Virus record (IMG/VR): IMGVR_UViG_3300032163_001339 | Location: 1 to 49,005 of that record | Source of the DNA: a virus | Strand: one strand, 5' to 3' | Length of the DNA: 49,005 nt | Shown: piece after piece, positions 2,128 to 40,680 of the stretch | Position numbering within the stretch: position 1 is the stretch's first letter | Layout of the letters: every line of letters begins with the position of its first letter | Translations under genes and position numbers: made by a program | Notes under the pieces: generated by a model | Seen by the model: only the letters and a program-made list of their open reading frames with translations | Databases searched by the model: none | What the model was told of the DNA's origin: nothing

Positions 2128-2145
2128 GATCGTCTCCTGAATTAA

Positions 2146-2469: not shown

Positions 2470-2484
2470 TTCATTCTCCTGGGT

Positions 2485-2514
2485 AATTGATACTGTATTA
2501 CTACGATACATATA
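2485..2514 (-). promoter_or_regulatory. Promoter/operator block, second copy
   Basis: Matches 24 of 30 bases of 2152-2181 and contains the imperfect palindrome TGTAT-7-ATACA (2494-2510). It lies 16 bases upstream of the ATG at 2469 and within the divergent gap facing the sugar operon, so a protein bound here could affect both directions. Confidence 0.6.
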
Positions 2515-2582
2515 AACGCGCAGCTTGTAAAGTTTTATTTTGTCTGCTACAGTGCTACACATACCCATTGGTGAGGCGTAGC

Positions 2583-3431: not shown

Positions 3432-3432
3432 C

Positions 3433-3741: not shown

Positions 3742-3772
3742 TAGCGCCCGCCCCCGGGGCAGGTGAGGATCG

Positions 3773-3800
3773 AAACAAACAAACAAACAAACAAATAAAC
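3773..3800 (+). repeat. AAAC tetranucleotide tract, 7 units
   Basis: Five AAAC units, one AAAT and one more AAAC lie 21 bases before the methylase start and just before its ribosome site. Tetranucleotide tracts can change length by slippage and are used as phase-variation switches in surface-sugar genes of some bacteria. Here the tract is outside the coding frame, so a change would alter spacing rather than frame. Confidence 0.85.
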
Positions 3801-3821
3801 AACGACGTGCGGAGCTTTTAT

Positions 3822-4433: not shown

Positions 4434-5527
4434 AACGCTGTATTCGCTGCACCTTACCCGACACCCGGCCCGACACTCATTTCAACGACTCGGGGCTGTG
4501 CAGCGCCTGTTCCTCGTTCGACGCGCGCGCGACTGTGGACTGGAGCGAGCGCCGCGCGGATTTGGAGCGTATTCTGGAGGGAGGTAAAAACTCATCCGGC
4601 TATGACTGCATTGTCGCCAGCAGCGGTGGCAAGGACAGCCATTTCCAGGTTAGGACGTTGCTAGATATGGGCGCCAAGCCGCTAATAGTCACGGCACGAA
4701 CCGACTACATCACGCCGATTGGGCAGCGCAACATAGACAATCTGGCGCGCTATGCAGACACGTACAATGTCGTACCGAACATCGCCACGCGCCTGAAGCT
4801 GTGCAGGTTGGGCTTCGAGCTGGTCGGGGACATATCATGGCCGGAGCACGCCGCCATATTTTCCACCCCTATTCGCGTGGCCGCCCAGCTCGGCATCCCG
4901 CTGGTGTTCTACGGTGAGAATCCGCAAAATCAATACGGCGGTCCGCCGGGTAGCGGAAACGAAAGGCGTATGACGCGGAGATGGGTGCACGAATACGGTG
5001 GGCTTCTCGGACTGCGCGCCAATGATTTTGTGGGCATGGAGGGGCTTGCGCACGCAGATATGCACCCGTATATGCTGCCGGAGGATGACGCGCTGGGCAG
5101 GGTTGAAACCTACTTTCTGGGACAATTCGTGCCATGGGATTCCCAGCGCAATATCTATGTCGCCCGCTCCATGGGGATGGTTGGGTTCAAGCCTAGTGTG
5201 GCCAATCTGTGGGATTTAGAGAATGTGGATAACCTATTTACCGCGGTGCACGACCACCTCATGTACCGTAAGTATGGTTTCGGACGTGGCGGCGCGCAGA
5301 TGGCCGTAGACGTTCGCCACGGTTTGATAGGGCGCGACTACGCTTTGGATTGGCTGGGGGAGTACGACGGGATTTACCCGGACCAGTACGCTGGCCTGGA
5401 TATGTCTGTGATCCCGCAATTGCTGGGCACGACCGACGCGGCATATTGGGGGACCATGGATAGTTTCACTAATTGGGGATTGTTCGGCGAGGAAGTGGAT
5501 CACCGCCCCATCCTTAAACCATGCTAG
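4430..5527 (+). CDS. N-acetyl sugar amidotransferase (WbpG/PseA family)
   Basis: 365 residues. An ATP-dependent amidotransferase that converts an acetamido group of an N-acetyl sugar to an acetamidino group, as WbpG does in some O-antigens and PseA does for pseudaminic acid derivatives. The N-terminal CIRCTLPDTRPDTHFND followed by GLCSAC gives the paired cysteines of the family. The PP-loop ATP site reads VASSGGKDSHFQ at about residues 58-69. Length is normal. In known systems ammonia comes from a HisH/HisF-like glutaminase pair; the HisF-like partner is the next gene, but no HisH-like gene is seen. The start overlaps the methylase stop. Confidence 0.88.
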   Translation: MKRCIRCTLPDTRPDTHFNDSGLCSACSSFDARATVDWSERRADLERILEGGKNSSGYDCIVASSGGKDSHFQVRTLLDMGAKPLIVTARTDYITPIGQRNIDNLARYADTYNVVPNIATRLKLCRLGFELVGDISWPEHAAIFSTPIRVAAQLGIPLVFYGENPQNQYGGPPGSGNERRMTRRWVHEYGGLLGLRANDFVGMEGLAHADMHPYMLPEDDALGRVETYFLGQFVPWDSQRNIYVARSMGMVGFKPSVANLWDLENVDNLFTAVHDHLMYRKYGFGRGGAQMAVDVRHGLIGRDYALDWLGEYDGIYPDQYAGLDMSVIPQLLGTTDAAYWGTMDSFTNWGLFGEEVDHRPILKPC

Positions 5528-6261
5528 CCAAACGAATAATACCGTCCATACTGTGCCGGGGGCCCTTGCAGGTCAAGGGTGTCGGGTTCGATTCGTGGCG
5601 CGCCGTGGGTGTCGCCGAAGCAGCCGTGCGCATCCATAGCGCGCGTGGCTGCGATGAGATACTGCTGGTGGACATAGGTGCTACCCCGGAGCGGCGCGGA
5701 CCCGATTTAGCCATGATTGAGCGCATATCAGCCGGTTGCTTTTGCCCGCTCACAGTCGGTGGGGGCGTGCGCACCTTGGGGGACATCGAAGCTTTGTTGC
5801 GGGTCGGGGCGGACAAGGTGCTGATCGGCGCGGCCGCGATTGAGGACCCCCGCCTGATCCACGACGCGGCGGTTCGATTCGGGTCGTCCACGGTGGTGGT
5901 GGCAGTGGACGTACTGGATCAGAGGGCCGTCATCAACTGTGGCAAAACCATTGTACGTCGCCGCCCCAACGCATACTCCGCGCTCATGGAACGCGCTGGG
6001 GCTGGCGAGATACTGCTGACGTCGGTGGTGCGGGATGGCACTTTGACTGGGTATGACTTGGATTTGATCGCCGAGATTGCCGATATAGTCAACATACCGG
6101 TGATCGCGGCCGGCGGGTGCGGCACGTATGACCACATGCGCCAGGCATTCCTGGCCGGGGCCGACGCCTGCGCATCCGGCGCCATGCTGCAATGGACCGA
6201 TGCCACCCCGCGCGGGGCGGCGGAGTATCTTTCGAAACATGACGTGGAGGTGCGATTGTGA
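5521..6261 (+). CDS. HisF-like/WbuZ amidotransferase synthase subunit
   Basis: 246 residues, a TIM-barrel protein of the HisF/WbuZ group. It opens with KRIIPSILCRG, where histidine-pathway HisF has an Asp-containing CLDV motif; loss of that Asp points to the sugar-modification branch rather than histidine synthesis. Other barrel elements are LTVGGGVRTLGDIEALL, ADKVLIGAAAI, VVVAVDVLDQ (retaining the second Asp), ILLTSVVRDGTLTGYDLDL and IPVIAAGGCGT. In WbpG-type systems it channels ammonia from HisH to the amidotransferase. It overlaps the amidotransferase gene by 7 bases, so the two are probably made together. HisH is absent from this genome. Confidence 0.87.
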   Translation: MLAKRIIPSILCRGPLQVKGVGFDSWRAVGVAEAAVRIHSARGCDEILLVDIGATPERRGPDLAMIERISAGCFCPLTVGGGVRTLGDIEALLRVGADKVLIGAAAIEDPRLIHDAAVRFGSSTVVVAVDVLDQRAVINCGKTIVRRRPNAYSALMERAGAGEILLTSVVRDGTLTGYDLDLIAEIADIVNIPVIAAGGCGTYDHMRQAFLAGADACASGAMLQWTDATPRGAAEYLSKHDVEVRL

Positions 6262-6689
6262 ACGCGAGATTGGTTTCTGTGTACGATTCCCGAGGACATG
6301 ACAACACCTTGCGCGTCTTGTACGACCTACTGGCGTCGCGCCCGGAAGGAGCAAACATAAGCCACAAGGAAATGCCGTCGTGGGGCGGGCACTGCGCGTT
6401 CGTGGACTCACACCCCTATTCTGCGTGGTATCTGGTTGAGGCGGGTGGCGTAGTCGTTGGGACAGTGTATTTGACACGTTCCAATGAGGTGGGAGTTACG
6501 ATAGATACCCATTTTCGCAGGCAGGGATTCGGCATCAAGGCCGTGGTAGCTTTGATGCATGCTCATCCGCGGGATTATTATCTCGCCAACATAGCCCCCG
6601 GAAATGAGGCGTCACAGGCGATGTTCGGGAAAATCGGCGTTAAACTCATCCAGTGCACGTATAAATTTCTTCCAGAAAACGCGTCATGA
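6258..6689 (+). CDS. GNAT-family N-acetyltransferase
   Basis: 143 residues with a GTG start that overlaps the previous stop (GTGA). A GNAT fold is suggested by VVGTVYLTRSNEVGVTIDTH followed by the acetyl-CoA pyrophosphate-binding loop FRRQGFGIKAVVALM, then NIAPGNEASQAMFGKIG near the end. These are the beta-4/alpha-3 and beta-5 elements of the family. Given its neighbours it probably acetylates an amino-sugar intermediate, like PseH or related enzymes; the exact substrate is inferred. Its stop overlaps the start of the synthase gene. Confidence 0.8.
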   Translation: MNARLVSVYDSRGHDNTLRVLYDLLASRPEGANISHKEMPSWGGHCAFVDSHPYSAWYLVEAGGVVVGTVYLTRSNEVGVTIDTHFRRQGFGIKAVVALMHAHPRDYYLANIAPGNEASQAMFGKIGVKLIQCTYKFLPENAS

Positions 6690-7684
6690 GCGGACCGTTC
6701 TTTATCGCAGAAATGGGTGCCTCCCACAACGGTTCGCTGGATACGGCACTGGCAATAGTCGCAGCGGCCGCTAAAGCTGGCGCATATGCAATCAAGGTAC
6801 AGACATTCATCCCGGGCGAAATGGCGTTTCCAGGGGTGCACCTGGAACACGGCCCGTGGGCTGGCCGTGATTTGCACGAGCTATACGGCACGGCTGCGCT
6901 GCCATGGGAGTGGCATGCCCCGATATTCGCCCGCGCCAAAGAACTCGGGCTGGTCGCATTATCCTCCCCATTTTCCGCCGGCGCCGTGCACAAACTTGAG
7001 CAAATAGGCTGCCAGGCGTACAAGATAGCCAGCCCGGAGATTGGGTACGAGAGCTTGATACGCGCCGCAGCAACTACGCTCAAGCCCGTGATAATTTCCA
7101 CCGGATCGGCGTACCTGTTCGAGGTGGAAAGAGCCGCGCAGTGGGCGTCCGATAGTGGTTGTTTCGATTTGACCTTACTGCACTGCGTGTCATCGTACCC
7201 GGCGCTGCCAGACGATTACAATCTGTCCTCACTGCGGCGCTTGCAGCAACGTTTCCCGTTCACTTCGGTTGGCTTATCCGACCACACTAAAAGTAACACC
7301 ATAGCCATCGCGGCCACCGCTATAGGGGTAAATGTCATAGAGCGGCACATAACTCTCGGAGGGCGCGGTTTAGATGACGTTTTTGCGTCTACCCCGGACG
7401 AATTCGCGGATATGGTGCAACAATGCCGTGCAGTGCTCCGCGCCGACGATAAAATGCCATTCACATTTTCGGCGTCGGAAATGCGCAACCGAGAGTACCG
7501 TCGGTCGCTGTGGGTGATCGCGGACCTACCGGCCGGGCACGTGTTGGCCCGCGACGATATCGGTATACTGCGCCCCGACCATGGCATGTCGCCCGAGGAA
7601 CTGCCGTATGTGGTTGGCGGGAGGCTGGTGCGTGATGTGCAAGCGGGATCACCATTGACCCACGATTTAGTGTGGCGCGCGTAG
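6686..7684 (+). CDS. NeuB/PseI-like nonulosonate synthase
   Basis: 332 residues. Condenses phosphoenolpyruvate with a six-carbon amino sugar to give a nine-carbon sialic-acid-like sugar. The TIM barrel begins with FFIAEMGASHNGSLDTAL and AGAYAIKVQTF. KIASPEIG, VIISTGSA, LLHCVSSYP, GLSDHT and VIERHITLGG follow in the family order. A C-terminal antifreeze-like (SAF) domain begins near RRSLWVIADLPAGHVLARDD. The barrel and SAF pattern is closest to PseI, though NeuB or LegI cannot be excluded. It ends the sugar operon. No CMP-transferase or epimerase for the same pathway is seen, so the host must provide them. Confidence 0.88.
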   Translation: MSGPFFIAEMGASHNGSLDTALAIVAAAAKAGAYAIKVQTFIPGEMAFPGVHLEHGPWAGRDLHELYGTAALPWEWHAPIFARAKELGLVALSSPFSAGAVHKLEQIGCQAYKIASPEIGYESLIRAAATTLKPVIISTGSAYLFEVERAAQWASDSGCFDLTLLHCVSSYPALPDDYNLSSLRRLQQRFPFTSVGLSDHTKSNTIAIAATAIGVNVIERHITLGGRGLDDVFASTPDEFADMVQQCRAVLRADDKMPFTFSASEMRNREYRRSLWVIADLPAGHVLARDDIGILRPDHGMSPEELPYVVGGRLVRDVQAGSPLTHDLVWRA

Positions 7685-7690
7685 TCGTAA

Positions 7691-8173
7691 ATGGTCAGGC
7701 CATTACAGTTGATAGGTAGTGAGGAGTATCGCAAAGAGTTCGCGGAGCAGGCGTACAATTATTGTTTGTTAGGGGCTACCGACGAGCAACTGGCCATGTT
7801 TTTCGACGTCCCGGTAACCACCATCGCCTCCTGGCAAATACGCATACCGTCGTTCAACGATGCGTGTCGACGCGGCAAGGATATTGCGGACGCCCGAGTG
7901 GCGCACGCATTATTTGAAAATGCGGTAGGATACACATACCAGACGACTAGGCAAATAAGGGGCCAGGAGGTTGCGGTGGATGTGTACGTCCCGCCCCAGG
8001 TGAAGGCCCAAGAATTCTGGCTGACCAACCGCAGACCTGATCTGTGGCGCAAGCAGATTGACATCACCGCGCAGCCGGCCCTGTTACCCGGTCCGGCCGA
8101 CTTGAAAGACGCAGCCCGTCGCATAGCATTTGCGCTTGCGGCGGGTACGACTATAATTGACTCGGAGGACTAG
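7691..8173 (+). CDS. terS: Terminase small subunit
   Basis: 160 residues. The N-terminal helix-turn-helix segment LLGATDEQLAMFFDVPVTTIASW matches the homeodomain-like DNA-binding part of many small terminases. RGKDIADARVAHALFENAVGYTY and EFWLTNRRPDLWR are also usual in this phage family. It would bind the packaging site and recruit the large subunit at 10664. No clear ribosome site precedes the ATG at 7691, so it may rely on coupling to the synthase gene 7 bases upstream. Small terminases diverge quickly; this call rests on motif and position. Confidence 0.8.
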   Translation: MVRPLQLIGSEEYRKEFAEQAYNYCLLGATDEQLAMFFDVPVTTIASWQIRIPSFNDACRRGKDIADARVAHALFENAVGYTYQTTRQIRGQEVAVDVYVPPQVKAQEFWLTNRRPDLWRKQIDITAQPALLPGPADLKDAARRIAFALAAGTTIIDSED

Positions 8174-8175
8174 CC

Positions 8176-8409
8176 ATGGCAGGTAAACCAATAGCGGTCA
8201 ATACGGTGGATCACCCGTTAGCCGTAAAAACTACCGTTTCCGGCGCCGTTACTTACACGGCGGAGGCGCAACCCGGCAGCCTGCAATCCGACGCCGTGTG
8301 GCGCTGTCATAAAATCGACACTACTACCGGGACGGTTATTACGTGGGCCGACGGAAATGGAAATTTCGACAACATCGCCACCGATTTAACGGTGTTGACA
8401 TATACATAG
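8176..8409 (+). CDS. Small hypothetical structural-type protein
   Basis: 77 residues, ATG at 8176 with ggagga 6 bases upstream and 2 bases after the small terminase stop. Rich in Thr, Val and Ala with a beta-strand pattern (LAVKTTVSGAVTYTAEA, TTTGTVITWADGNGNFDN), resembling small beta-rich virion or fibre-tip domains. No family is recognised and no membrane segment is present. Confidence 0.65.
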   Translation: MAGKPIAVNTVDHPLAVKTTVSGAVTYTAEAQPGSLQSDAVWRCHKIDTTTGTVITWADGNGNFDNIATDLTVLTYT

Positions 8410-8417
8410 GGGTCGCC

Positions 8418-8480
8418 ATGTCATCATATGGATTGTTGCGCGATTCGATTGCCGTGGGAATTTTGGCGCGGCAGTTGTGA
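8418..8480 (+). CDS. Possible 20-residue peptide
   Basis: ATG at 8418 with agggg about 7 bases upstream, encoding MSSYGLLRDSIAVGILARQL and a TGA stop. It fills the gap between the genes at 8176 and 8532. A weakly amphipathic helix is possible. It may be chance; low confidence. Confidence 0.25.
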   Translation: MSSYGLLRDSIAVGILARQL

Positions 8481-8531
8481 GGCGTCGGCTATACGCCAGG
8501 CAAATGCCGTGGTTAAGTGCAGGAGTCGACC

Positions 8532-8984
8532 GTGCCACTCGACATACCGATAGTCGCTGATAATCCATCCCATGCTGCGCGCTATCAGGGGCTGCTTGGC
8601 AAAATACCGCAGAAGGCCGCTGCCGACATCCTTCTCAAAGGCATCAACGTGGTGCAGGATGTAGACTCAGAAGCCCGCAAGAATTTTGCCCAGAAGTACA
8701 AGTTGCCCCGTGGAAAAATAGAGGGCTTCTACGTGCGCGAGGATCAATCCCTATACGTCGGGCCGGATACCACGGACGAGGTTTTTTATCATGAGATAGG
8801 GCACAGCGTACAGGCTAAGTCTGCCACCCCTGAGTGGCGTGATGCCTGGAAAGCGGAGTGGTCGTTTTCAGACCAATTCAACACCCCCACAGAATCGTTT
8901 GCCGAAGCGTTTTCGAGTTGGATGCGAGAACAGCCGCTTCCGCCCCGGACTAAAAAGGCTATGGAATCGTGGTACCGGGACTAA
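8532..8984 (+). CDS. Zinc-metalloprotease-like protein (HExxH)
   Basis: 150 residues from a GTG at 8532, chosen because aggag lies 6 bases upstream. The motif VFYHEIGHSVQ has the HExxH zinc ligands. TPTESFAEAFSSW, about 30 residues later, supplies a candidate third acidic ligand, the pattern of gluzincin-like domains in many phage and toxin proteins. No signal peptide. It lies between the terminase genes, so it may process or associate with head proteins. It could also be an injected or catalytically weak domain. Confidence 0.68.
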   Translation: MPLDIPIVADNPSHAARYQGLLGKIPQKAAADILLKGINVVQDVDSEARKNFAQKYKLPRGKIEGFYVREDQSLYVGPDTTDEVFYHEIGHSVQAKSATPEWRDAWKAEWSFSDQFNTPTESFAEAFSSWMREQPLPPRTKKAMESWYRD

Positions 8985-8992
8985 CTTTGTTC

Positions 8993-9121
8993 ATGGCGGA
9001 CGGCTCTGTGGTGGATGCCAAACCAAAGCCTGCGGTGTCCCGGCAAAACAGTATACTGCGCCAGCCGCAAGGAACTATACTAGGTGCAACCCCGCGCTCG
9101 GAAAGGATTAAAAATGGCTGA
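8993..9121 (+). CDS. 42-residue protein with PQG motif
   Basis: ATG at 8993, 8 bases after the protease stop, ending at TGA 9119-9121 and overlapping the next gene. The segment SRQNSILRQPQGTILG resembles the C-terminal ends of the small proteins at 12241 and 12580 (Arg-rich, then I/M-L-x-PQG). The ribosome site is weak, so expression would rest on coupling. The shared motif is the main reason to call it. Confidence 0.45.
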   Translation: MADGSVVDAKPKPAVSRQNSILRQPQGTILGATPRSERIKNG

Positions 9122-9293
9122 GAAATGGATTCAGAAGGCTATCAAGAAACCTGGGGCCTTGCACAAGCAGCTAGGCGTTCCCGCGAACAAGAAAATACCC
9201 GCCGCCAAGCTGCGGGCTGCCTCTAAAAAGGGCGGAAAACTTGGTAAACGCGCCCGCCTGGCCCAGACTTTGCGCACCATTGTAAGCAAGTAA
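9114..9293 (+). CDS. Small basic phage protein
   Basis: 59 residues, ATG at 9114 with aaagga 6 bases upstream. Very Lys- and Ala-rich: MAEKWIQKAIKKPGALHKQL at the start, then KGGKLGKRARLAQTL. Proteins of this pattern are common near head genes of many phages, but their role is unknown. The high charge could suit nucleic-acid binding or capsid interior packing. It overlaps the preceding small gene by 8 bases. Confidence 0.75.
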   Translation: MAEKWIQKAIKKPGALHKQLGVPANKKIPAAKLRAASKKGGKLGKRARLAQTLRTIVSK

Positions 9294-9325
9294 CGCCAGC
9301 AACAACCATTCCAAAGGAGATCACC

Positions 9326-9769
9326 ATGGCCTTCACTCTCGCACAACTCAGAAACAAAATCCTGACTACCATCCACGGCCGGCGCGTTGGCCTTGATTCC
9401 GACGGATTCCTGCTGGGCGTGAAGGGTACGCGAGTACCTATCACCGACGCCACCAGCGCCACCACGGGCACCGCGTTGCCAAACCATGGCCTGGTGTCGG
9501 TGGTGACCACCACAAACAGCGGCTGGACTCTGGCCGATCCGGTGCCCGGCTGTGAGGTTGAGCTGGTGACCGGCTCCAGTTCCACCGGCACGCACACCGT
9601 TACCTTTGCCGCGGCTACCGCCATTTCCAGCTATGGCATCGCCAGCAGTATCATTTCCATGCAGGGCAAAGGCGCGTTTATCTCGTTGCGCGGGTTGTCC
9701 ACGGCGACATGGGCTATCAAGTCTATTTTGCAAACTACCGCCGGCGGTTCGGTCCAAATTTCGTCCTAA
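9326..9769 (+). CDS. Hypothetical beta-rich virion-type protein
   Basis: 147 residues, ATG at 9326 with aaggag 7 bases upstream. The first helix (FTLAQLRNKILTTIHGRRVG) is followed by a Thr/Ser/Gly-rich beta pattern, including VTGSSSTGTHTVTFAAA. Composition resembles the head protein at 16714 and other decoration-type proteins. No catalytic motif is seen. Position in the packaging module supports a head role, which is inferred. Confidence 0.65.
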   Translation: MAFTLAQLRNKILTTIHGRRVGLDSDGFLLGVKGTRVPITDATSATTGTALPNHGLVSVVTTTNSGWTLADPVPGCEVELVTGSSSTGTHTVTFAAATAISSYGIASSIISMQGKGAFISLRGLSTATWAIKSILQTTAGGSVQISS

Positions 9770-9778
9770 GGGGGTGTT

Positions 9779-10663
9779 GTGAGTAGTCTGGAATTTCGCA
9801 AGAAATATTTCGGCACCGACAAGGAAAAAATAGTTTTGCTGGGGTCCGCCCCATCGTCGGTGAGCCTGGCCCCGTACGGTAATCCAGACTGGTACAAAAT
9901 GGGGTGCTCCCCCGGAATGTGGGGGCACCTCATGACTCACAACCTGCCAGTTGATGCCTGGGTCGAAATACACCGCGTCGAGGTGGGCCAGCCGTGGATG
10001 TCGGTGGAATACTATGACTGGATAACCAAGTTCAGCGGGCCGGTGTTTATGGCCGAAGTGCGCAAGGAAGTGCCAACCTCATGCGTATTTCCTATTGCGG
10101 AATTGATCGCCAAGTATAGTCCATACTTTTTTAGCTCAAGCCTGGCCTACATGATGGCAATGGCTATTGAGGCTGGGTTCAAGAAAATCATGCTGGCGGG
10201 GGTGGATATGTCGGCGCCCAGCGAGTATGGGTTGCAGAAACCAGCGTTGTGGTTTTTCGGGATGCTGGCCAAAGCGCGTGGCGTCGAGGTGGGGGTCCCG
10301 CCGGAATCCGACCTGTTCCGTCCCATGCCACTGTACGGTATCAGTGAGGTGTCGCACCCGCGCATAAAAATTATGGCCAGGCGCCGCGAGTTGCAGGCGC
10401 GCGTAGCCACAGCCCAGCAACAACAGCACAATGCTGAGCGGGAGATACTGTTCTTGCAGGGGGCTCTGGACGATCTGGAGTGGTGCGAAATGACTTGGAC
10501 CGGTAACGTGGATGGGGTTGGCAGCTCGTTCGTAGAACCGCCGCACGCAGCGATGCTTTGTGACTTGGCGGACTCAAAATCCATGCCAACGCTTACCGAT
10601 GCGGAGGTGCAAAGCATCGTAGACGCTGCGGTCAGCAATCTGCAAGACGAGTCGCCCGGCTAA
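9779..10663 (+). CDS. Rossmann-type MptE/sialyltransferase-like protein
   Basis: 294 residues, GTG start with ggggg just upstream. An N-terminal Rossmann-like strand-loop reads KIVLLGSAPSSVSLAPYG. A later helix-strand segment, FFSSSLAYMMAMAIEAGFKK then IMLAGVDMS, parallels motifs in DUF115/MptE-like proteins and the GT42 sialyltransferase Cst-I (glycine loop near the N-terminus, then an [I/L]xxxVYMxxxAI...GIDF pattern). Similar proteins occur in terminase regions of other phages, so a virion or host-surface role remains open. A coiled-coil-like helix (MARRRELQARVATAQQQQ) follows near residue 200. Fold inference is moderate; activity is not shown. Confidence 0.5.
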   Translation: MSSLEFRKKYFGTDKEKIVLLGSAPSSVSLAPYGNPDWYKMGCSPGMWGHLMTHNLPVDAWVEIHRVEVGQPWMSVEYYDWITKFSGPVFMAEVRKEVPTSCVFPIAELIAKYSPYFFSSSLAYMMAMAIEAGFKKIMLAGVDMSAPSEYGLQKPALWFFGMLAKARGVEVGVPPESDLFRPMPLYGISEVSHPRIKIMARRRELQARVATAQQQQHNAEREILFLQGALDDLEWCEMTWTGNVDGVGSSFVEPPHAAMLCDLADSKSMPTLTDAEVQSIVDAAVSNLQDESPG

Positions 10664-12238
10664 ATGGGACCCCTAGATGAGGTGCTATCCAGGCTCACGG
10701 CGTTGCCGGCAGAACAACGAGATGCTGTGATCAAGGAGGCCATGGCTGTAACCGGTGGCCTCAAATGGATACCGTCTCCGGGACCGCAAACTGAGGCATA
10801 TTTCAGCGGGGCCGACATCTTGCTTTTCGGGGGAGAACCGGGGGGCGGTAAAACGGCGCTCATCAACGGGCTGGCCTACAACTGCCACCACCGCAGCCTG
10901 ATCATGCGGCGCCAGTACACCGACCTGTCCCCCATCATCGAAGAGATACTGCGCATCCACGGCAGTCGTCAGGGTTTCAACGGGTCGCCGCCTCCTATCC
11001 TGCGACTGGGTGACGGACGGCTCATAGAGTTTGCAGGAGCTGCGCGCGTGGGGGACGAGCAGCACCTACAGGGAAACCCGCATGATTTGCTTTGCTTTGA
11101 CGAAGGTACGCAATTCGCCCGCCAGCAAGTCAGTTTTCTCATGGGCTGGGTGCGGTCTACCGACCCTAATCAGCGTAAGCGCGTTGTCATCGCCACCAAC
11201 CCACCGCTCACCACAGAAGGCTTGTGGGTGGTTGAAATGTTCGCCCCGTGGCTCGATCCCAAGTACCCATTTCCGGCCGTTTCCGGCGAGCTGCGTTGGT
11301 TCGTGACGGACGAGAATGGCAAGGATGTGGAAGTCTCAAGCGGGGATTTGGTCCAGGTTGGGGAAAAGATGGTGCGACCGCTATCCCGCACCTTCATACC
11401 CTCTTCGGTGCGGGACAATCCATACCTGGCCGGAACGAACTATGAGGCCAGGCTGGACTCTATGGTCGAGCCGTACCGATCCATTTTGTTAGGGAGGTTT
11501 CAAACTTCATTCCGTGACGCTCCGAACCAGACAATACCGACAGAGTGGGTGCGCGAAGCCCAGAAACGGTGGAATCCCGTTCCCCCTTTCGGGGTCCCCA
11601 TGTGCGCCGTAGGGGTGGACATAGCGGCTGGCGGTGACGACGAAACCATCCTGGCCCAGCGATATGATGGTTGGTTTGCCCCGATGCAGGCTACCCCTGG
11701 GCGCGAAACTCCGTTTGGCAGCGATGTCGCCGCCCTGATCCTGAAATATCGCCGTGATTCCGCTGTGATAGTGCTGGACATGGGCGGGGGTTACGGGGGA
11801 TCAACCTATGAGCACCTGCGCAACAATGACTTTGATGTGCGAACCTACAAGGGGGCCGAGTCGGTGGAAACCCGCACCAAGGACCGCCAGATGAAATTTA
11901 CCAATCGCAGAACCGAGTCTTGGTGGCGTTTCCGCGAAGCTCTGGACCCAGGCCAACCCGGCGGGTCGCCTATCATGCTGCCGGATGATGCCAAACTCTT
12001 GGCAGACCTGACGGCCCCGACCTTTGAAATTACCCCGAATGGTATTAAACTGGAACCAAAGGAAAAGGTTTGCCTGCGTTTGGGCCGCTCCACTGACCGA
12101 GGGGATGCAGTAGTGATGGCCTGGACGGGCGGCCCCAAGTATGCCACTGATGGGGGTGTGTGGATGGACCGCCAGAACGAACTATCCCGCCGGAACAAAA
12201 CCCCGGTGGTGGTGCTCAAGAATTCCAAAAGGAGGTAA
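10664..12238 (+). CDS. terL: Terminase large subunit
   Basis: 524 residues. The N-terminal packaging ATPase has Walker A GEPGGGKTALINGL (about residues 63-76) and Walker B DLLCFDEGTQF; VVIATNPPL fits the coupling motif. The C-terminal RNase H-like nuclease has VGVDIAAGGDDETILAQR and IVLDMGGGYGG, supplying the acidic residues that cut concatemers. Length is normal. The start directly follows the stop of the previous gene (TAA ATG). It works with the small subunit at 7691 and the portal at 12810. Confidence 0.93.
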   Translation: MGPLDEVLSRLTALPAEQRDAVIKEAMAVTGGLKWIPSPGPQTEAYFSGADILLFGGEPGGGKTALINGLAYNCHHRSLIMRRQYTDLSPIIEEILRIHGSRQGFNGSPPPILRLGDGRLIEFAGAARVGDEQHLQGNPHDLLCFDEGTQFARQQVSFLMGWVRSTDPNQRKRVVIATNPPLTTEGLWVVEMFAPWLDPKYPFPAVSGELRWFVTDENGKDVEVSSGDLVQVGEKMVRPLSRTFIPSSVRDNPYLAGTNYEARLDSMVEPYRSILLGRFQTSFRDAPNQTIPTEWVREAQKRWNPVPPFGVPMCAVGVDIAAGGDDETILAQRYDGWFAPMQATPGRETPFGSDVAALILKYRRDSAVIVLDMGGGYGGSTYEHLRNNDFDVRTYKGAESVETRTKDRQMKFTNRRTESWWRFREALDPGQPGGSPIMLPDDAKLLADLTAPTFEITPNGIKLEPKEKVCLRLGRSTDRGDAVVMAWTGGPKYATDGGVWMDRQNELSRRNKTPVVVLKNSKRR

Positions 12239-12240
12239 TC

Positions 12241-12570
12241 ATGGCTGCTGCTGCTGTTGGGGCGCTTATAGGGTACGGGATCGGGGGCACGGCGACGGCC
12301 GCGCTGGTGGGCGGTTACGTCGGCGCCACGATACTGGCGGATGCCTCCAGTGGGCCGTCGGTGCCGGCCCAGCCGCCGCAGAGTCAACTAGCCGCGCAGG
12401 CGGCATCCATGGCCCCGCCAGGTACACCACAACCGACTTCCGACGTTTATGCCGCGGCCAAATCCGCTTCAGCGACACAACAGTTGACCGGGCGCCGCGG
12501 GCGCACGGCGACTATCCTCTCACCACAAGGTGGTTTGGGCGGCAGTAATGAATTCCTGGGCGGACTATAG
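12241..12570 (+). CDS. Small Gly/Ala-rich head-region protein with PQG motif
   Basis: 109 residues, ATG at 12241 with aaaaggagg 5 bases upstream. The N-terminal 35 residues are hydrophobic and glycine-rich (AVGALIGYGIGGTATAALVG), like a glycine-zipper membrane segment. A Pro/Gln-rich linker follows. The C-terminus has GRRGRTATILSPQGGLGG, the same Arg-then-ILxPQG pattern as the genes at 8993 and 12580. It sits between the terminase and the portal. A membrane-active or ejected small virion protein is possible but unproved. Confidence 0.7.
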   Translation: MAAAAVGALIGYGIGGTATAALVGGYVGATILADASSGPSVPAQPPQSQLAAQAASMAPPGTPQPTSDVYAAAKSASATQQLTGRRGRTATILSPQGGLGGSNEFLGGL

Positions 12571-32936: not shown

Positions 32937-34292
32937 GTGGCCCAGTTCGCAAGCGACGCATTTACCGGTACGAGCGGAACAGAACTCCATACGTATAGCG
33001 CGAACTGGACCGAGCACCCGAGTTTTACATCGGGGGGACTGGCCATATCGGATGTGGACCGGGCCAGGGCAAATAATGGCAGCGGGCTAGTAAATTGCTA
33101 CTACCACACCGGGGCAGCGGCATCGGCGGACTACAGTGTTAACGCCGATCTGTTCGCCAAGGAGACGAGCGGCGGACAACAATATGCCGGAGTCCTTGGG
33201 CGCACTTCCACCAGTGCATCCACATTTTACATGGCGCGCTATGCCGGGGCTGGAACAAACGGGTGGCAACTATTTAAATGCGTCGCGGGGACGTATACCC
33301 AACTAGGTTCTACCTCTAGCCAAGCACTCACCGACGAGACTAGCTACAACGTCAAGTTGGAAATGGTGGGCACAGCCATCAAGCTCTACAAAGAGGGGGG
33401 CGGAACCGCTACGATCAGCGTCACTGACTCCAGCATCACAGCAGCCGGGCAATCCGGCCTATGGCTATATGCCGTAACCGGCTCGACAGACAACGCATCT
33501 GGCTTGCACTTCGACAATTTTAGCGCGGACGATGCCGGAGCGACCACCACCGACGGGGCGTTCTCACAGGCCGGGGCTGCATCCGTAACAGTAACCGGAT
33601 CGGCTACTGCCGGGGCCTCCGCCAGCGTTTCCACGGCCGCCGCACTTACCGGTGCCGGGGTGGTTGTGGTAGGTTCTCCGGTCAACCTGGCCGGCGCGTC
33701 CGCACTGATTGCCGCCGGAACAGCGGTATTCGGAGCGGCCGTGTCCGGGGCAGCGGCCGGAAACCTTGTGGCTACCGGGGCAGTGACCGGGGAAGTGCAC
33801 GATATCCTGGCTACCGCCGCGGCATCGTTAACGGTATCCGGGGCGGCGTTGGCAGCGGCCGGGCTATCCGAAACAGCAGTTGCAACTCTTTCCGCCATCG
33901 GAACCGGGTTGTGTTCCGCTGCCTTGGTATCCCCCGCAGTCGCAGCGGTAACCTTCACCGGGGCTGCGGCCGGACAGGTCAATCAGGGCGCGTTAGCGTT
34001 CGCCAGCAGTTCACTGTTTGCCGCAGCCGCGGCGTCTGTCAACCGGTCGGATGCCACCTTGACCGCAGCTTCAGCCCTGACGTTTGGAGCCTCTTCCAGC
34101 GCGACCGGGGCTATGCTGTTCAATGCCACCGCGGCGGCTGTGTTCTCGTCCACCACGGCCAAGGCAGCTCCCGCCGTAACGCGCGACGGCGTGCGCGTGC
34201 AGCACAACAAGTACGCAGATGAGGATGCCGAGATCGAAATGCTGATACCAGAGCTAATTCAGTTCATGGAAACCCGCCGTGCCTACCACTGA
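32937..34292 (+). CDS. Fibre-like protein with jelly-roll N-terminus and Ala-rich repeats
   Basis: 451 residues, GTG start with no clear ribosome site, 5 bases after the previous stop. Residues 5-200 look like a laminin-G/concanavalin-type beta sandwich (ANWTEHPSFTSGGLAI, SGGQQYAGVLGRTSTS, ETSYNVKLEMVGTAIKLYKE). Residues 210-420 are an Ala/Gly/Ser/Thr/Val-rich repetitive beta region with degenerate short repeats such as AAGTAVFGAAVSGAAAG. The charged end includes KYADEDAEIEMLIPELIQF. The pattern suits a fibre with a sugar-binding head. It overlaps the next gene. Confidence 0.7.
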   Translation: MAQFASDAFTGTSGTELHTYSANWTEHPSFTSGGLAISDVDRARANNGSGLVNCYYHTGAAASADYSVNADLFAKETSGGQQYAGVLGRTSTSASTFYMARYAGAGTNGWQLFKCVAGTYTQLGSTSSQALTDETSYNVKLEMVGTAIKLYKEGGGTATISVTDSSITAAGQSGLWLYAVTGSTDNASGLHFDNFSADDAGATTTDGAFSQAGAASVTVTGSATAGASASVSTAAALTGAGVVVVGSPVNLAGASALIAAGTAVFGAAVSGAAAGNLVATGAVTGEVHDILATAAASLTVSGAALAAAGLSETAVATLSAIGTGLCSAALVSPAVAAVTFTGAAAGQVNQGALAFASSSLFAAAAASVNRSDATLTAASALTFGASSSATGAMLFNATAAAVFSSTTAKAAPAVTRDGVRVQHNKYADEDAEIEMLIPELIQFMETRRAYH

Positions 34293-35772
34293 TCGAATTT
34301 CCCACACCTACACGCCCAGTTCTGGCACTGACCGGTTGAGCGGTACGGCCACCCCGTCCACGCCCACCGACCGGTTGGGAGAACACGACACCGCGCGGTA
34401 CGAAACCGACCGCCGGGGCCTGGATATGGTGCTGGGTACCGGGCGCCTGTCTGGGGCATTCACGGTGAGCCTTGTATGCTCGTTCCAGGCCGCCGGGTAT
34501 GCTCGCGCCAGCGGCAACGTGTCCGTCACCGCCACGGCCGCCATAGCGACCATCGCCAGCCCACTATCGAAAGGTTCGATAGTGGCAGCGGCGGCGGGAA
34601 CCTGCACCATGCGCGGGGAATCCGTGGCTACAGGGGCAGCTGTGATAGTCACGGCGGGGAATTACGGGCCGGTGTACGAAACTGATAAGGGCAGGCTTGT
34701 AGGGGCGTGCAACTCGTCCCTAACACTGCTAGGCGTGGCCTTCACAGGAGCCGCAGCATCAATACCAGTGCAGTCCGCCTTTGTGCCTACACCAAACCCC
34801 GTGGGTGCGTCCCAAATTCAAGCAGCCCAGACTTCGGTGGGCGCCTGGCAGGGGGCAGCGCTGGCATCCTCACCCGTGGCCGCAGCCGGCTTAGGCGGGT
34901 GGACTACGATATCGGATGCCGCGGCGGGGTATTTTGGCGGCGGAAGCGTCAGCGGCGGCGTAAACGAAATAGACGGCATCCGGTTCTCCGACGAAGCAGC
35001 CATAAACCCGTCTGCCGCACTATCGCTGGCGAGGTACGCCCTGGCCGCGGTTAACTCGACTTCGCGCGGGTATTTCGGTGGAGGATTTTCTGGGGCTGTA
35101 TCGGCGGAAATTGACGGAATAGAGTTCGCGGGGGAAACGGCTATCAACCCATCCGCGACACTATCCGCGGCACGGGTAAATTTAGCCGCGGTTAACTCGG
35201 CTTCACGCGGCTACTTCGGCGGTGGGGACACCGGTAGCTTCAGCAGCGAGATTGATGGCCTGCAATTTTCGGACGAATCTGCCATAAATCCGTCCGCCGT
35301 CCTTGCGACTGCAAGGGGCGCCCTGGCCGCGGTTAACTCGACTTCGCGCGGGTATTTTGGTGGCGGGTACACCGGAACATCGTCCAACCAGATAGATGGC
35401 CTGCAATTTTCGGATGAAACAGCAATAAACCCAGCCGCAGCGCTGGTTACTGCGCGGTATTATTTGGCCGGGGCTAACTCCACTGCGAGGGGATATTTCT
35501 GTGGAGGGACTACTTTTTCATCGGAAATCGACGGAATACTGTTCAGCAGCGAGGCCGCCATCAACCCGACCGCAACACTATCGCTCGCCCGTAATAGCCT
35601 GGCCGCGGTTAATTCCTTGGAACGCGGCTACTTCGGTGGGGGCTATACAGGCTCTCTAACCGCAGAAATCGACGGAATACTGTTCAGCAGCGAGGCGGCC
35701 ATCAACCCGGCCGCCGCCTTGAGTATCGCGCGGTATTACCTGGCAGGTATGCAATCAGGAGGAATACTTTGA
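34279..35772 (+). CDS. Kelch-like propeller tail protein
   Basis: 497 residues, GTG start inside the previous gene. An N-terminal linker with DRLSG-type turns and an Ala/Val-rich region like that of the previous protein (residues 1-180) lead into six repeats of about 47 residues. Each follows GYFGGG-x-EIDGI-x-FS-x-E-x-AINP-x-L-x-AR-x-LA-x-VNS (residues about 217-497). Six repeats of this size with a GG and an aromatic residue suit a six-bladed kelch-like beta-propeller. A receptor-binding role at the tail tip is inferred. The upstream gene's linker similarity suggests the two fibres share an ancestor. Confidence 0.78.
   Translation: MPTTDRISHTYTPSSGTDRLSGTATPSTPTDRLGEHDTARYETDRRGLDMVLGTGRLSGAFTVSLVCSFQAAGYARASGNVSVTATAAIATIASPLSKGSIVAAAAGTCTMRGESVATGAAVIVTAGNYGPVYETDKGRLVGACNSSLTLLGVAFTGAAASIPVQSAFVPTPNPVGASQIQAAQTSVGAWQGAALASSPVAAAGLGGWTTISDAAAGYFGGGSVSGGVNEIDGIRFSDEAAINPSAALSLARYALAAVNSTSRGYFGGGFSGAVSAEIDGIEFAGETAINPSATLSAARVNLAAVNSASRGYFGGGDTGSFSSEIDGLQFSDESAINPSAVLATARGALAAVNSTSRGYFGGGYTGTSSNQIDGLQFSDETAINPAAALVTARYYLAGANSTARGYFCGGTTFSSEIDGILFSSEAAINPTATLSLARNSLAAVNSLERGYFGGGYTGSLTAEIDGILFSSEAAINPAAALSIARYYLAGMQSGGIL
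34927..35760 (+). repeat. Six 141-bp repeats coding for propeller blades
   Basis: GYFGGG-type codons start at 34927, 35068, 35209, 35350, 35491 and 35626. The steps are 141, 141, 141, 141 and 135 bases, the last being two codons short. Nucleotide similarity between blades is high in places (for example gccgcggttaactc near 35044, 35184 and 35324), so copies are recent or kept similar by recombination. Confidence 0.9.
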
Positions 35773-36571: not shown

Positions 36572-36579
36572 GTTATGCC
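36572..36579. other. Cassette core site GTTATGCC
   Basis: GTTATGCC is the exact reverse complement of GGCATAAC at 37197-37204, the outer end of the attC-like element. In integron cassettes the outer core at one end of a cassette is complementary to the core at the other. The site also contains the methyltransferase stop codon (TAA on the minus strand, 36573-36575), a common arrangement in cassettes. Confidence 0.6.
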
Positions 36580-37181
36580 CCAAACATCGCCAGTTGCGCG
36601 GTAGTCTGTTCAAAGCGTTTCTTTGCTGCGTTGTAATAGTCCGTATCAAGTTCACAGCCCACAAAGTCAACCCCGAAATAGTGTGCCGCAATCGCGCTGC
36701 TGCCACTACCGAGGTGCGTGTCTAGTATCCGCTGCCCCGGCTTGGCATAGTTCGTTAAAAGCCATTCGTAGAGCTTTACGGGCTTTTGGGTTGGGTGAAT
36801 CTTGCCTTGTTCAGCGAATACCGACCGCCTCCATATCTTCGCAGGGCGTTGTATGCTGCTCCAAGCCATTTCACACATCGCCAAACTAAAATCATGCGGC
36901 TGCACCTTGTCCCAAATCAAAAACCCTTGTGTCGCGCCAAGGAAGTCAAGGAAATAGTTGCCGCCCCAAACAATCTGGTTCTGGCTCACGCGCTTCAATT
37001 CAGCGAAGTAATCACCCCCCGGTATTGCCGCATCCCAATCTTTTTTGGTGTGCTGCTGGCGCACAGGCTTTGAGCTAATGCCAATGCCGTATGGAGGGTC
37101 GCACACAGCCAAATCAAACGCCTTGTCCGGCAAGGTTGCCATGTATTCCATGCAGTCAATGTTCAGCAGTTCTATGCTCAT
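36573..37181 (-). CDS. DNA adenine methyltransferase (orphan)
   Basis: 202 residues from the ATG at 37181 (gagg 7 bases upstream). Adenine-specific methyltransferase of the beta type: catalytic DLAVCDPPYGIGISSKP early (DPPY), and SAM-binding LDTHLGSGSSAIAAHYFGVD late. HPTQKPVKLYEWLLTNYAK between them is typical for phage orphan methylases. No restriction enzyme is adjacent, so it probably protects phage DNA or alters host methylation. It lies between a cassette core and the attC-like element, reads away from the attC-like site, and its stop lies in the outer core. This suggests it came in as a gene cassette. Confidence 0.88.
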   Translation of the reverse strand: MSIELLNIDCMEYMATLPDKAFDLAVCDPPYGIGISSKPVRQQHTKKDWDAAIPGGDYFAELKRVSQNQIVWGGNYFLDFLGATQGFLIWDKVQPHDFSLAMCEMAWSSIQRPAKIWRRSVFAEQGKIHPTQKPVKLYEWLLTNYAKPGQRILDTHLGSGSSAIAAHYFGVDFVGCELDTDYYNAAKKRFEQTTAQLAMFGA

Positions 37182-37196
37182 ATTTACCTCAAAACC

Positions 37197-37260
37197 GGCA
37201 TAACAAATCATTCCAGAGGACGGGCGAAAAGCCGCCCGCCCCTGAATTCAAACGTTAGGT
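37197..37260. other. attC-like integron recombination site
   Basis: An imperfect palindrome of 64 bases with the layout of an attC site: outer core GCATAAC (37198-37204), TAACAAATCATTCCAG, a GC-rich stem cgggcg/cgcccg around 37221-37238, then CTGAATTCAAACGTTAGGT ending in core GTTAGGT (37254-37260; consensus GTTRRRY). The arms TAACAAATCATTCCAG and CTGAATTCAAACGTTAG closely follow known attC arms. It lies between the 89-residue gene and the methyltransferase. The outer core matches the one at 36572-36579. The call rests on pattern; activity is not shown. Confidence 0.75.
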
Positions 37261-37270
37261 TGCAGTTTGC

Positions 37271-37540
37271 TCACTGCGCCGCCATCCTGTCGCGCCCGTG
37301 CTTTTGCTCCCAATACACATTGATCCATTTTCCCTGGCGTTGATGATCCAGCTCATCATAGTTAATTGGCAGCGGCTTATCGTTGTAGGGCGCGGCTATT
37401 ACTGTACGGTTTGCCACAATCGCTACACTACCCGCGCTCACATCATCCGGGCATTGGCTGATTGCATAATCCGCCCCAGTTGCGCACTGGTGCGGTTGCG
37501 TGTCGCCGCTGGAGTTAATTTTTAGGTATATGGTTTTCAT
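37271..37540 (-). CDS. Hypothetical protein next to attC-like site
   Basis: 89 residues, ATG at 37540 with gagg 5 bases upstream. A mixed, soluble sequence (YLKINSSGDTQPHQC, then GSVAIVANRTVIAAPYNDKP) ending in WEQKHGRDRMAAQ. Its stop lies 11 bases before the attC-like element, the usual gene-to-attC spacing in a cassette. No family is recognised; many cassette genes encode novel small proteins. Confidence 0.7.
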   Translation of the reverse strand: MKTIYLKINSSGDTQPHQCATGADYAISQCPDDVSAGSVAIVANRTVIAAPYNDKPLPINYDELDHQRQGKWINVYWEQKHGRDRMAAQ

Positions 37541-37568
37541 TTTTGCCTCGCTTATGCGTTGTCGCGGC

Positions 37569-37808
37569 TTACATCCACGTTAGCCACAAGCCATCGTATG
37601 CTTTTCGCCCTAATCGTTTTTCTAGCCGCATTACTAATTTCTGTGCTGGCCCCTGGAACTTGTCGTAGTTATCCTCCTGACCATAGCGGCCATCATGGTA
37701 TGTGGCATACTCCAGCACGCTCATGCACTCGGCCAGTAGCTCGTCGTCGTAGCATCCGTCTGCTTCGCGCTTCGCCGCGCCGAGGCGTTTTTGCGCTGAG
37801 GTACTCAT
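37569..37808 (-). CDS. Hypothetical small charged protein
   Basis: 79 residues, ATG at 37808 with aaggag upstream, overlapping the stop of the upstream gene (ATGA). Helical, charged sequence including QKRLGAAKREADGCYDDELL and KLVMRLEKRLGRKAYDGLWL. No motif known to me. Coupled translation with the 37805 gene suggests joint action or shared ancestry. Confidence 0.68.
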   Translation of the reverse strand: MSTSAQKRLGAAKREADGCYDDELLAECMSVLEYATYHDGRYGQEDNYDKFQGPAQKLVMRLEKRLGRKAYDGLWLTWM

Positions 37809-38416
37809 GCTTCTTCTCCTTCTTGTAGGTCAGTGGTGGCGCGAAGCCGGTCACCTAGAGCGTTGTGCCCCTTGCAGCGTGCTGCCAGCTCTACAAGCCA
37901 GCTCGCCAGCTCCGGGGGCGTGTGTTCGCGTTCCGCCTTTGTTATGTGCGGCCTGTGGTCGTGCCGTTTCCGGCTCTGCACTACATGGCTCGCCTCACCC
38001 AGGCGCAGCGGCATTCGTGGCAGGTCTTGCGGTTCAGCGCCGCAAATGTACAGCCAAGTCTTTTTCTCTGCTCGGTGGCCCCACCACATTTGCACTATTG
38101 GCAAAGTCCACCCTCCAAATTCGTCGCGCTCCCCTGGCGCCGGTAGTTGCTGGTCTTGCCATAGCGTCGAGCCGGCCGGGTGCTCCAAAACGCCGCCCCA
38201 TTTCCGCACTTGCGCCACCGCCCACCGCGCCAGGTCTTTCTCGTCTGCCCGTGGGGCCGCAAAATGCCGCAGCCTTCCCCACGCCCGGCAAGGCGGGTGC
38301 GCCACTACCGGCTCGCCACCTTGCCAGCGTCTGGCATCTCTCTCGGCGTCCCATACGTCCACGCCAGGCATCGCCTTGTAGTTGCTATCTTCGCGGGCAA
38401 AAAGCACAGCTACCAT
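37805..38416 (-). CDS. Phage accessory protein with HPPCRAW motif
   Basis: 203 residues from the ATG at 38416 (cggag 5 bases upstream); an in-frame ATG at 38443 has no better site. The segment VVAHPPCRAWGRLRHFA, then GGVLEHPAGSTLW and VQMWWGHRAEKKTWLYICG, belongs to a phage family I have seen with unknown function. The HPPC and EHP steps recall cytosine-methylase-like folds, but catalytic residues are not complete. The last 20 residues, after KGHNALG, span the core-like word at 37862-37871 and could have been added by recombination. It overlaps the next gene by 4 bases. Confidence 0.72.
   Translation of the reverse strand: MVAVLFAREDSNYKAMPGVDVWDAERDARRWQGGEPVVAHPPCRAWGRLRHFAAPRADEKDLARWAVAQVRKWGGVLEHPAGSTLWQDQQLPAPGERDEFGGWTLPIVQMWWGHRAEKKTWLYICGAEPQDLPRMPLRLGEASHVVQSRKRHDHRPHITKAEREHTPPELASWLVELAARCKGHNALGDRLRATTDLQEGEEA
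37862..37871. other. Cassette core-like site GTTGTGCCCC
   Basis: The exact 10-base reverse complement of GGGGCACAAC at 38437-38446, the outer end of the second attC-like element. The two flank most of the 203-residue gene, the geometry expected for the outer cores of a gene cassette. It falls within codons for KGHNA near the gene's end. Confidence 0.5.
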
Positions 38417-38436
38417 TATATCTCCGTAGTTACGGC

Positions 38437-38501
38437 GGGGCACAACAACACGCTCAACCGGACGCCGCTAAAGCGGCGCCGCCAACCTCAAGCGGCTTGC
38501 C
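38437..38501. other. Degenerate attC-like element
   Basis: GGGGCACAAC (38437-38446), an arm acacgctcaaccgga, a perfect stem CGCCGCT-AA-AGCGGCG (38463-38478), and a second arm ccaacctcaagcggcttgcc. The stem and first arm closely follow known attC arms; the second arm ends in GGCTTGCC rather than a GTT core, so it may be inactive. The 58-residue gene ends inside it (stop at 38488-38490). Orientation is not settled. Confidence 0.55.
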
Positions 38502-39453: not shown

Positions 39454-40045
39454 CGGACACCTCCGCGGTCGCTCTGCCGAAAGTCGGGCGGAAATCGCCG
39501 AAACCGCCGTACCTGGAAGCATGTTGTATGACGCGCTTCAAGGTTGGGAAGTCGATCACCGAGTCGTCAAATTCCAGCACGGTGGAGAAACTCCAGTCGT
39601 GGAAAATAGGCGCATCCTTGGCAATGCGAACCGCCTTCTGCGGCAGCAGCATGCGTATGCGCATGTCAGGGTTGCCCACCACGTCATCGATGGTTTTAAC
39701 CTTGTCCATGCCGCTGTAGGCGAGTTTAATTTTGCTTTCGGTGGGGAACAATCCGCCGCGCATTTTGGAGCGGCCTATCTTCGACACCTGAAACGCGGTA
39801 GTGCATGTCGCTTCCATGAGCCAAGACGCTGGAATGTATACCTTCAGCTCCGTGTCGAAATACAATTTAGATTCGACTTCGATGTTGCCGATCTCCAGAA
39901 TATCGTCATCGGTTTTGCGTTGGCCCTTGGCGTGCAGAGGCTTCAGCAATTTTTTGTACCGGTTGAAAGGGTCAACCACTTGTGGATTGTTGACCAATAA
40001 CGGGTTAATCCCGGCGATTTCTACGCGTGCTTGCCTGATTGCCAT
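39446..40045 (-). CDS. RAMP-like conserved phage protein
   Basis: 199 residues from the ATG at 40045 (aggaga 8 bases upstream). Opens with RVEIAGINPLLVNNPQVVDP, then IPASWLMEATCTTAFQV. It ends with HASRYGGFGDFRPTFGRATA, a glycine-rich motif like the GxGDWRPxxGR end of a phage family that resembles RAMP/ferredoxin-like RNA-binding proteins. Phage members lie in replication or recombination modules and have no established role. It is the first gene downstream of the pentamer array and promoter at 40693-40721, so it has a leader of about 640 bases. Confidence 0.7.
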   Translation of the reverse strand: MAIRQARVEIAGINPLLVNNPQVVDPFNRYKKLLKPLHAKGQRKTDDDILEIGNIEVESKLYFDTELKVYIPASWLMEATCTTAFQVSKIGRSKMRGGLFPTESKIKLAYSGMDKVKTIDDVVGNPDMRIRMLLPQKAVRIAKDAPIFHDWSFSTVLEFDDSVIDFPTLKRVIQHASRYGGFGDFRPTFGRATAEVSDV

Positions 40046-40099
40046 TTCCGTGTCTCCTGATTTGTCGATAAAAGAATTGAGATATCCCAATTCAGTCCG

Positions 40100-40680
40100 G
40101 GCAACTCGGCCCGGACAACACCCTCGTTGGAAGATGTTGGCCGCGTTTCGTTGCTTTGCGCTGCGGTGCGTTGCCTTGCGTTGCCGTGCCGTGCGTTGCC
40201 ATGCATTGCAATGCATTTGAATCCCAGATTTTCACCGGAACTCGGACAACACCCTCGTTGGAAGATGTTGGCCGCGTTTCGTCGCTTTGCGTTGCGGTGC
40301 ATTGCGGTGCGGTGCCGTGCGTTGCTATGCATTTGAATCCCAGATTTTCACCGAGACTCGGACAACACCCTCGTTGGAAGATGTTGGCCGCGTTTCGTTG
40401 CTATGCCGTGCGTTGCCTTGCGCTGCCGTGCGTTGCTATGCATTTGAATCCCAGATTTTCACCGAGACTCGGACAACACCCTCGTTGGAAGATGCTGCCC
40501 GCGTTTCGTTGCTTTGCGTTGCGGTGCGCTGCCCTGCGCTGCGTTGCCTTGCGTTTGAATCCCAGATTTTCACCGAGACTCGGACAACACCCTCGTTGGA
40601 AGATGCTGCCCGCGTTTCGTTGCTTTGCGATGCCTTGCGTTGCAATGCGGTGCTTTGCAGTGCTCTGTAATGTGTTTCCA
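40100..40680. repeat. Array of 66-bp constant blocks and NNTGC pentamers
   Basis: Five copies of cggacaacaccctcgttgga start at 40112, 40243, 40359, 40470 and 40581, with steps of 131, 116, 111 and 111. Each step is a constant 66 bases plus 13, 10, 9 or 9 pentamers. Every pentamer reads NNTGC with rare exceptions (tracts 40150-40214, 40281-40330, 40397-40441, 40508-40552 and 40619-40663). The constant block has a palindrome ccgag-a-ctcgg in copies 3-5. Frames through it are Cys-rich or Arg/Gln-rich and look like by-products. It lies in the untranslated leader of the RAMP-like gene, read on the minus strand as GCANN repeats. Confidence 0.92.

Follow-up and report, generated by a model that had tools for sequence, protein, structure and literature searches.

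The window, by which we mean the whole 49,005-bp stretch of DNA analyzed here, is a single IMG/VR virus record. It encodes a terminase, a head protein, a 2534-aa protein, a DNA polymerase, a helicase, an exonuclease and a RusA-like resolvase, as well as a T7-type head-tail adaptor with ~30% identity to the adaptor of Pelagibacter phages. The PF03237 terminase profile had a weak match in the window and also matched eleven of the other viral contigs to which it was applied. Late genes occupy the positive strand up to position 36552, and most accessory and early genes are located on the negative strand from 36573. The segment described below sits at this convergent joint of late and early genes, is flanked by phage genes on both sides, and consists of genes that share the polarity of the early genes (Table 1).

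Table 1. Features of the segment in window coordinates. A slash marks the recombination point; SD, Shine-Dalgarno sequence.
Feature	Position	Strand	Basis and details
5' core of cassette 1	36572..36579	+	G/TTATGCC; recombination point between 36572 and 36573
Gene cassette 1, DNA methylase, intact attC	36573..37254	+ (attC polarity)	Complementary cores at the ends; attC by covariance
DNA methylase gene	36573..37181	-	202 aa; ATG at 37181; SD GAGGT; inverted relative to attC
attC	37198..37260	+	R'' GCATAAC; L'' TTCCAGAGG with extrahelical base; stem; L' CCCCTGAA; R' GTTAGGT
Intercassette segment with two small genes	37255..37862	+	Position, gene polarity, attC remnant at its end
Small gene P0003	37271..37540	-	ORF, 89 aa; SD GAGG
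Small gene P0004	37569..37808	-	ORF, 79 aa; starts at the attC remnant
3' half of decayed attC	37786..37868	+	82% identical to positions 243-326 of viral contig L085
Gene cassette 2, gene P0002	37863..38492	+ (attC polarity)	Complementary cores at both ends
Gene P0002	37805..38416	-	203 aa; ATG at 38416; phrog_12600, E = 6.8e-74
Degenerate attC at the array end	38437..38496	+	R'', L'' and stem present; R' box missing (G/GCTTGCC)

A search of the window against Rfam returned no match, no tRNA or tmRNA that might serve as an integration site was found in it, and the segment itself displayed no similarity to plasmid DNA. Close relatives without the segment, in which the phage site would be empty, were sought through three neighboring proteins, and none was usable; contigs L133 and L134 share with the window only two positive-strand genes at the left. 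In one of the contigs, L133 (IMGVR_UViG_3300042691_004247), positions 5108-10579 hold a gene related to that at 34279-35772 of the window. A single part of the window gene matches this relative in about 16 overlapping places, and the tail-region gene therefore seems to grow by repeat expansion. Elsewhere in the window, a unit of 111-131 bp is repeated five times in tandem at 40029-40663; it combines a conserved block, TTTGAATCCCAGATTTTCACCGAGACTCGGACAACACCCTCGTTGGAAGATG, with a variable part that has a five-base periodicity (TTGCG/TTGCC and variants).

The site at 37198-37260 possesses the R''/R' and L''/L' boxes and the single-strand fold of an attC. Counted from 37197, it reads GGCATAAC...GTTAGGT, and its boxes are those that an earlier sequence-only reading of this DNA had described as an attC layout. 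That reading had also suggested a covariance search, which we carried out with models of our own. The first model, R1, was derived from 12 attC sites of plasmid integron cassettes, mostly resistance cassettes (aadA1, aadA2, dfrA1, cmlA1, qnrVC, OXA-1 and IMP among them), and included no phage sequence. Applied to both strands of the window with filters off, R1 assigned 44.4 bits to the site on the positive strand (E = 6.6e-9), a score far above chance and the only significant match in 49 kb. The second model, R2, was trained on 58 attCs taken from other viral contigs and comprised 20 pairs, with 87% of cells paired; its covariation was 0.376 as opposed to 0.123 for shuffles, and it scored the same site at 59.5 bits (E = 1.9e-13). 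Because the opposite strand reached only 2.7 bits, the polarity of the attC is clear. The site is 84% identical to an attC in contig L063. Another weak match, of 3.5 bits at 37566-37585, was not counted as an attC.

Integron cassettes are movable gene units, and the outer core of the attC of an inserted cassette is complementary to the start of that cassette. The sequence GTTATGCC occurs on the positive strand of the window only once, at 36572, and is the exact complement of the attC outer core at 37197. The methylase cassette can thus be delimited to 36573-37254. The second cassette is bounded in the same manner: GTTGTGCCCC is found only at 37862, and its exact and only complement, GGGGCACAAC, at 38437. 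Both cassettes therefore begin with a G/TTRRRY-type start complementary to their own R''. The two complementary pairs, one across the methyltransferase gene and the other joining 37862 to a degenerate element across P0002, had been noted from the sequence alone, and both proved to be unique in the window.

The gene of the first cassette matches PF01555 (N6_N4_Mtase, 64 bits) and phrog_67. The genes had been said to start about 20-25 bp from the cores and to stop in or beside them, which holds for the methylase, whose ATG lies 17 bp from the core and whose TAA stop codon is supplied by the 36572 core. For P0002, only half of the statement stands: translation begins 24 bp from the core, but the stop codon is located 55 bp past it, so that the C-terminus passes the cassette edge and runs into the neighboring attC remnant. 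The cassette edge falls at residue 194, homology to most full-length phage matches ends at residue 187-191, and the tail past the edge is unmatched in relatives. Homologues of P0002, matching at 51-58%, are present in the phages Doze and fSU1 and in a microvirus. The viruses that encode homologues H94 (PQ067315), H99 (MK765587) and H95 (PQ533655) comprise an 11-kb Xanthomonas phage, a microvirus and a Mu-like Pseudomonas phage; this gene thus crosses unrelated phage types.

The element at the right end of the array scored low, since its R' box is missing: 38440-38496 received 11.1 bits with R1 and 15.3 bits with R2 (E = 1.9 and 0.092 over the window, and 0.0043 over the segment). The remnant preceding the P0002 cassette is known by homology, as its counterpart in L085 forms the 3' part of an attC that spans L085 201-323 and scores 44.9 bits (E = 4.8e-9). 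The array therefore contains one strong attC, one weak attC without R' and one remnant, the latter two being non-functional as they stand. Two small genes between the cassettes, P0003 and P0004, had been omitted from the sequence-only reading, although P0004 abuts the attC remnant. Neither has a Pfam or PHROG match, and the covariance search found no complete attC in 37255-37862. Judging by its position, the direction of its genes and the attC remnant in which it ends, this segment probably consists of decayed cassettes.

The contig L085 provided a junction. In this 5-kb viral contig, an array adjoins a replication gene, judged to be helicase-like by visual inspection of the sequence. L085 matches window positions 37786-37871 at 82% and then switches to the methylase cassette exactly at G/TT. 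It reads GGAGCCGGTCACCTAGAGCG and then TTATGCCCCAAACATCGCC, which belongs to the methylase cassette, whereas the window reads GAAGCCGGTCACCTAGAGCG and then TTGTGCCCC, which belongs to the P0002 cassette; in the window, the methylase cassette instead follows CTGCACG at 36572. At the nucleotide level, the difference between the two is an exact cassette exchange at G/TT. An exact junction in a relative had been proposed as a check on the sequence-only reading, and it is seen here, with a common attC remnant followed by a different cassette from G/TT on.

Homologous methylase cassettes were located next to attCs in L063, L082, L083, L084, L085 and L086, and the one in L063 belongs to an array of about 10 cassettes. 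The full record of L082, G001, represents a distant phage with a similar gene order, whose structural proteins are 22-31% identical to those of the window over the longer matches. Its methylase cassette is 67% identical and forms part of an attC array, with the same location and orientation as in the window, ~5.3 kb after the giant-protein gene. Methylase homologues of 81-82% are also present without an attC in L002, L003 and L004. In two of these phages, a blurred core, GCGTTATTCCCC, marks the 3' end of the 81% identical methylase (L002 2354-2953 and L003 5001-5600) and suggests that the gene is a former cassette.

These comparisons bear on two explanations that would dispense with a cassette array in the phage. 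According to one, the likeness to attC is accidental: the hairpins are ordinary transcription terminators or RNA elements, and the genes are no more than common phage morons. The GC-rich stems of both hairpins and the P0002 homologues in other kinds of phages would suit this explanation, but it leaves unaccounted for the attC matches of 44-60 bits with their box sequences, spacers and extrahelical base, the strand asymmetry, the matching core at the opposite cassette end and the exact L085 junction. We give it almost no credence, and for 37198-37260 it is already refuted unless the L085 junction is an assembly error. According to the other, the contig is chimeric, with a bacterial cassette array falsely joined to a phage. 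Although the record comes from a metagenome assembly and cassette arrays are repetitive, the array has phage genes on both flanks and the polarity of the early genes, and comparable arrays occur in other phages on contigs with terminase, portal or RusA genes. A chimera is thus very improbable, if marginally less so than a chance resemblance.

Integron integrase profiles (TIGR02249) and PF00589 (Phage_integrase) had no match in the 49-kb record, which may be incomplete, in agreement with the earlier statement that this phage carries no integrase. No attI was recognized to the left of 36572 when this region was compared by eye with the attI-like sites of phage integrons. The window thus shows neither the intI nor a recognizable attI of a complete integron. 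We consider it highly likely that 36573-38496 represents a short integron cassette array in a phage without an integrase of its own, with IntI probably supplied in trans. The attC match and the exact L085 junction support the core of the sequence-only reading, namely, that integron cassettes lie inside a phage genome.

A cassette gene is usually, but not obligatorily, co-directional with its attC. In the window, the cassette genes are inverted; the sequence-only reading had recorded genes on the negative strand but missed that this reverses the usual polarity. We determined how common such inversion is with a simple ORF score, in which length is weighted by ATG and Shine-Dalgarno sequence. Among viral contigs without IntI, picked by attC pattern and mostly of one attC subtype, 40 cassettes were inverted and 6 were forward, and 15 of 15 contigs were mostly inverted. 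Among IntI-bearing bacterial integrons, all from one bacterial order, the respective numbers were 16 and 62 cassettes, with 2 of 15 contigs mostly inverted (Fisher p = 2.9e-13 by cassette and 1.8e-6 by contig). The viral arrays derived through the methylase contained 20 inverted and 2 forward cassettes. Bacterial attCs next to IntI had the polarity expected from intI, except for one weak reverse match over a strong site, and this validates the strand calls. Of the phages described by Qi et al. (PMC9892861), TJE1 is forward and MW202573 inverted. In the latter (L195), the attC cluster at 2069-3738 is on the negative strand and the annotated genes are on the positive strand. We dropped the idea that the attC subtype is enriched in viruses over bacteria (33 viral stretches versus 3 of 369 genomes), as two of the three bacterial matches have no adjoining attC fold and the collections are not comparable per base.

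Some phages encode the enzyme themselves. A full IntI, scoring ~465 bits, was found in 2 of 31 viral contigs; its gene lies between TerL and portal in G029 and overlaps RusA in G016. A scan with both proteins yielded 18 viral contigs with IntI-like proteins. Nine phage IntI form a clade (support 97/93) near but outside the bacterial sequences sampled, while the long-branched IntI-like proteins of L264-L268 were left out of the argument. In the phage-IntI contigs, the attCs are located upstream of intI in the usual polarity, and nearly all cassette genes are co-directional with intI. The integron of L251/G029 carries a homologous methylase cassette in the first position at its attI-like site, with a 5' end resembling that in the window. 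Contigs L255, L258 and L259 have the same sequence throughout 1200 nt of the intI region and a further 63 nt upstream, but immediately after GAATTTAAG/TT their identity falls to chance level. Each of the three thus bears a different cassette at a single attI-like site, which is the mark of cassette turnover. In L187 (IMGVR_UViG_3300009031_000034), a complete integron with an attC array, a methylase cassette, an attI-like site and IntI occupies 3058-12317, between the terminase and portal genes of a phage.

The orientation of the genes is also relevant to the most serious competitor, passive capture, in which the phage would have acquired a piece of a bacterium's chromosomal integron through illegitimate or homologous recombination, and the piece would by now be inert. 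The decayed attCs at the right end and the lack of an integrase are consistent with such an origin, and Qi et al. consider off-target recombination, both homologous and illegitimate, in the case of some phages (PMC9892861). However, bacterial fragments would mostly carry forward genes, whereas these are inverted, like those of phage-encoded integrons, and the same methylase cassette is found in several phages with different neighbors, joined exactly at G/TT. We regard passive capture as unlikely and retain the cassette array served in trans. The attC, the cassette ends, the L085 junction, the inversion and the phage-borne IntI with turnover at attI can all be read from the sequences themselves.

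We propose the grouping "phage-encoded inverted-cassette integron." The window shares with it the inverted genes and the cassette pool, and carries no intI belonging to the phage clade. It is somewhat more probable than the opposite that these elements constitute a phage-specific branch of integrons, with their own IntI and attI in phage operons and with inverted cassettes, whose pool is shared in trans by phages without an integrase.

Carriage of cassettes by phages is not new. Qi et al. 2023 described 21 phages with attCs, 17 attC clusters without an integrase, and DNA methylase cassettes among the cargo, and found published phage attCs to be active with IntI1 in 5 of 6 cases (PMC9892861). 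Thus, the suggestion that a phage may be a cassette carrier is borne out by the attC match and the L085 junction but had been anticipated by that work. The CALINs of Qi et al. share with the window attCs and cassettes without IntI, methylase cargo and the same polarity-setting boxes (PMC9892861). A CALIN, an attC cluster without an integrase, comprises at least two attCs, against which the window offers its one strong site, the weak site without R' and the remnant; no integron integrase was found nearby in the 49-kb record, itself possibly incomplete. Their model phage TJE1 has forward genes, unlike the window, whereas MW202573 is inverted like the window, an inversion not remarked on in the accessible portion of that paper (PMC9892861). 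Sedentary chromosomal integrons of the Burkholderiales type have the same attC architecture and the same attC polarity relative to intI, but their genes run with the attC and away from intI (62 of 78), whereas phage cassettes run against the attC and with intI. A model of the attCs of class 1 cassettes (aadA, dfrA, qnrVC) gave the window attC 44.4 bits; these cassettes differ in cargo and orientation, and the window has no attI1 or IntI1. In Spirochaetota, typical IntIs are in reverse orientation (PMC9668308). These "reverse" integrons resemble those of phages in that one component is reversed relative to the usual integron, but spirochaetes reverse IntI (PMC9668308), whereas phages keep the usual intI-attC polarity and flip the cassette genes. 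No paper on inverted phage cassettes or on the phage IntI clade was found in the open-access literature, and the inverted orientation appears to be the new part.

In the proposed mechanism, each cassette would be a gene with its own Shine-Dalgarno sequence, preceded by its attC, so that the genes are read against the attC polarity and along the negative-strand operon of the phage. Cassettes would enter and leave at G/TTRRRY through recombination of the folded attC bottom strand by an integron integrase. The enzyme may be provided in trans by a coinfecting phage with an IntI of the inverted-cassette clade or by an IntI of the host. The methylase cassette at the left end was presumably the latest to arrive, because its attC is the only intact one, and those to the right, with decayed attCs, would be older. 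Inversion may serve cotranscription with the phage operon and, where intI is present, would allow cassettes and intI to be transcribed together. The methylase itself probably protects phage DNA from host restriction.

If a phage-specific branch exists, inversion would also separate the cassette pool of phages from that of bacteria, because a phage cassette inserted into a bacterial integron would lie antisense to Pc, and vice versa. Phage cassette arrays are not necessarily strays from bacteria; they can constitute a coherent class in which gene polarity is reversed, and some members of which have an integrase of their own and visible cassette turnover. Phages would thereby gain a site-specific means of swapping accessory genes such as DNA methylases.
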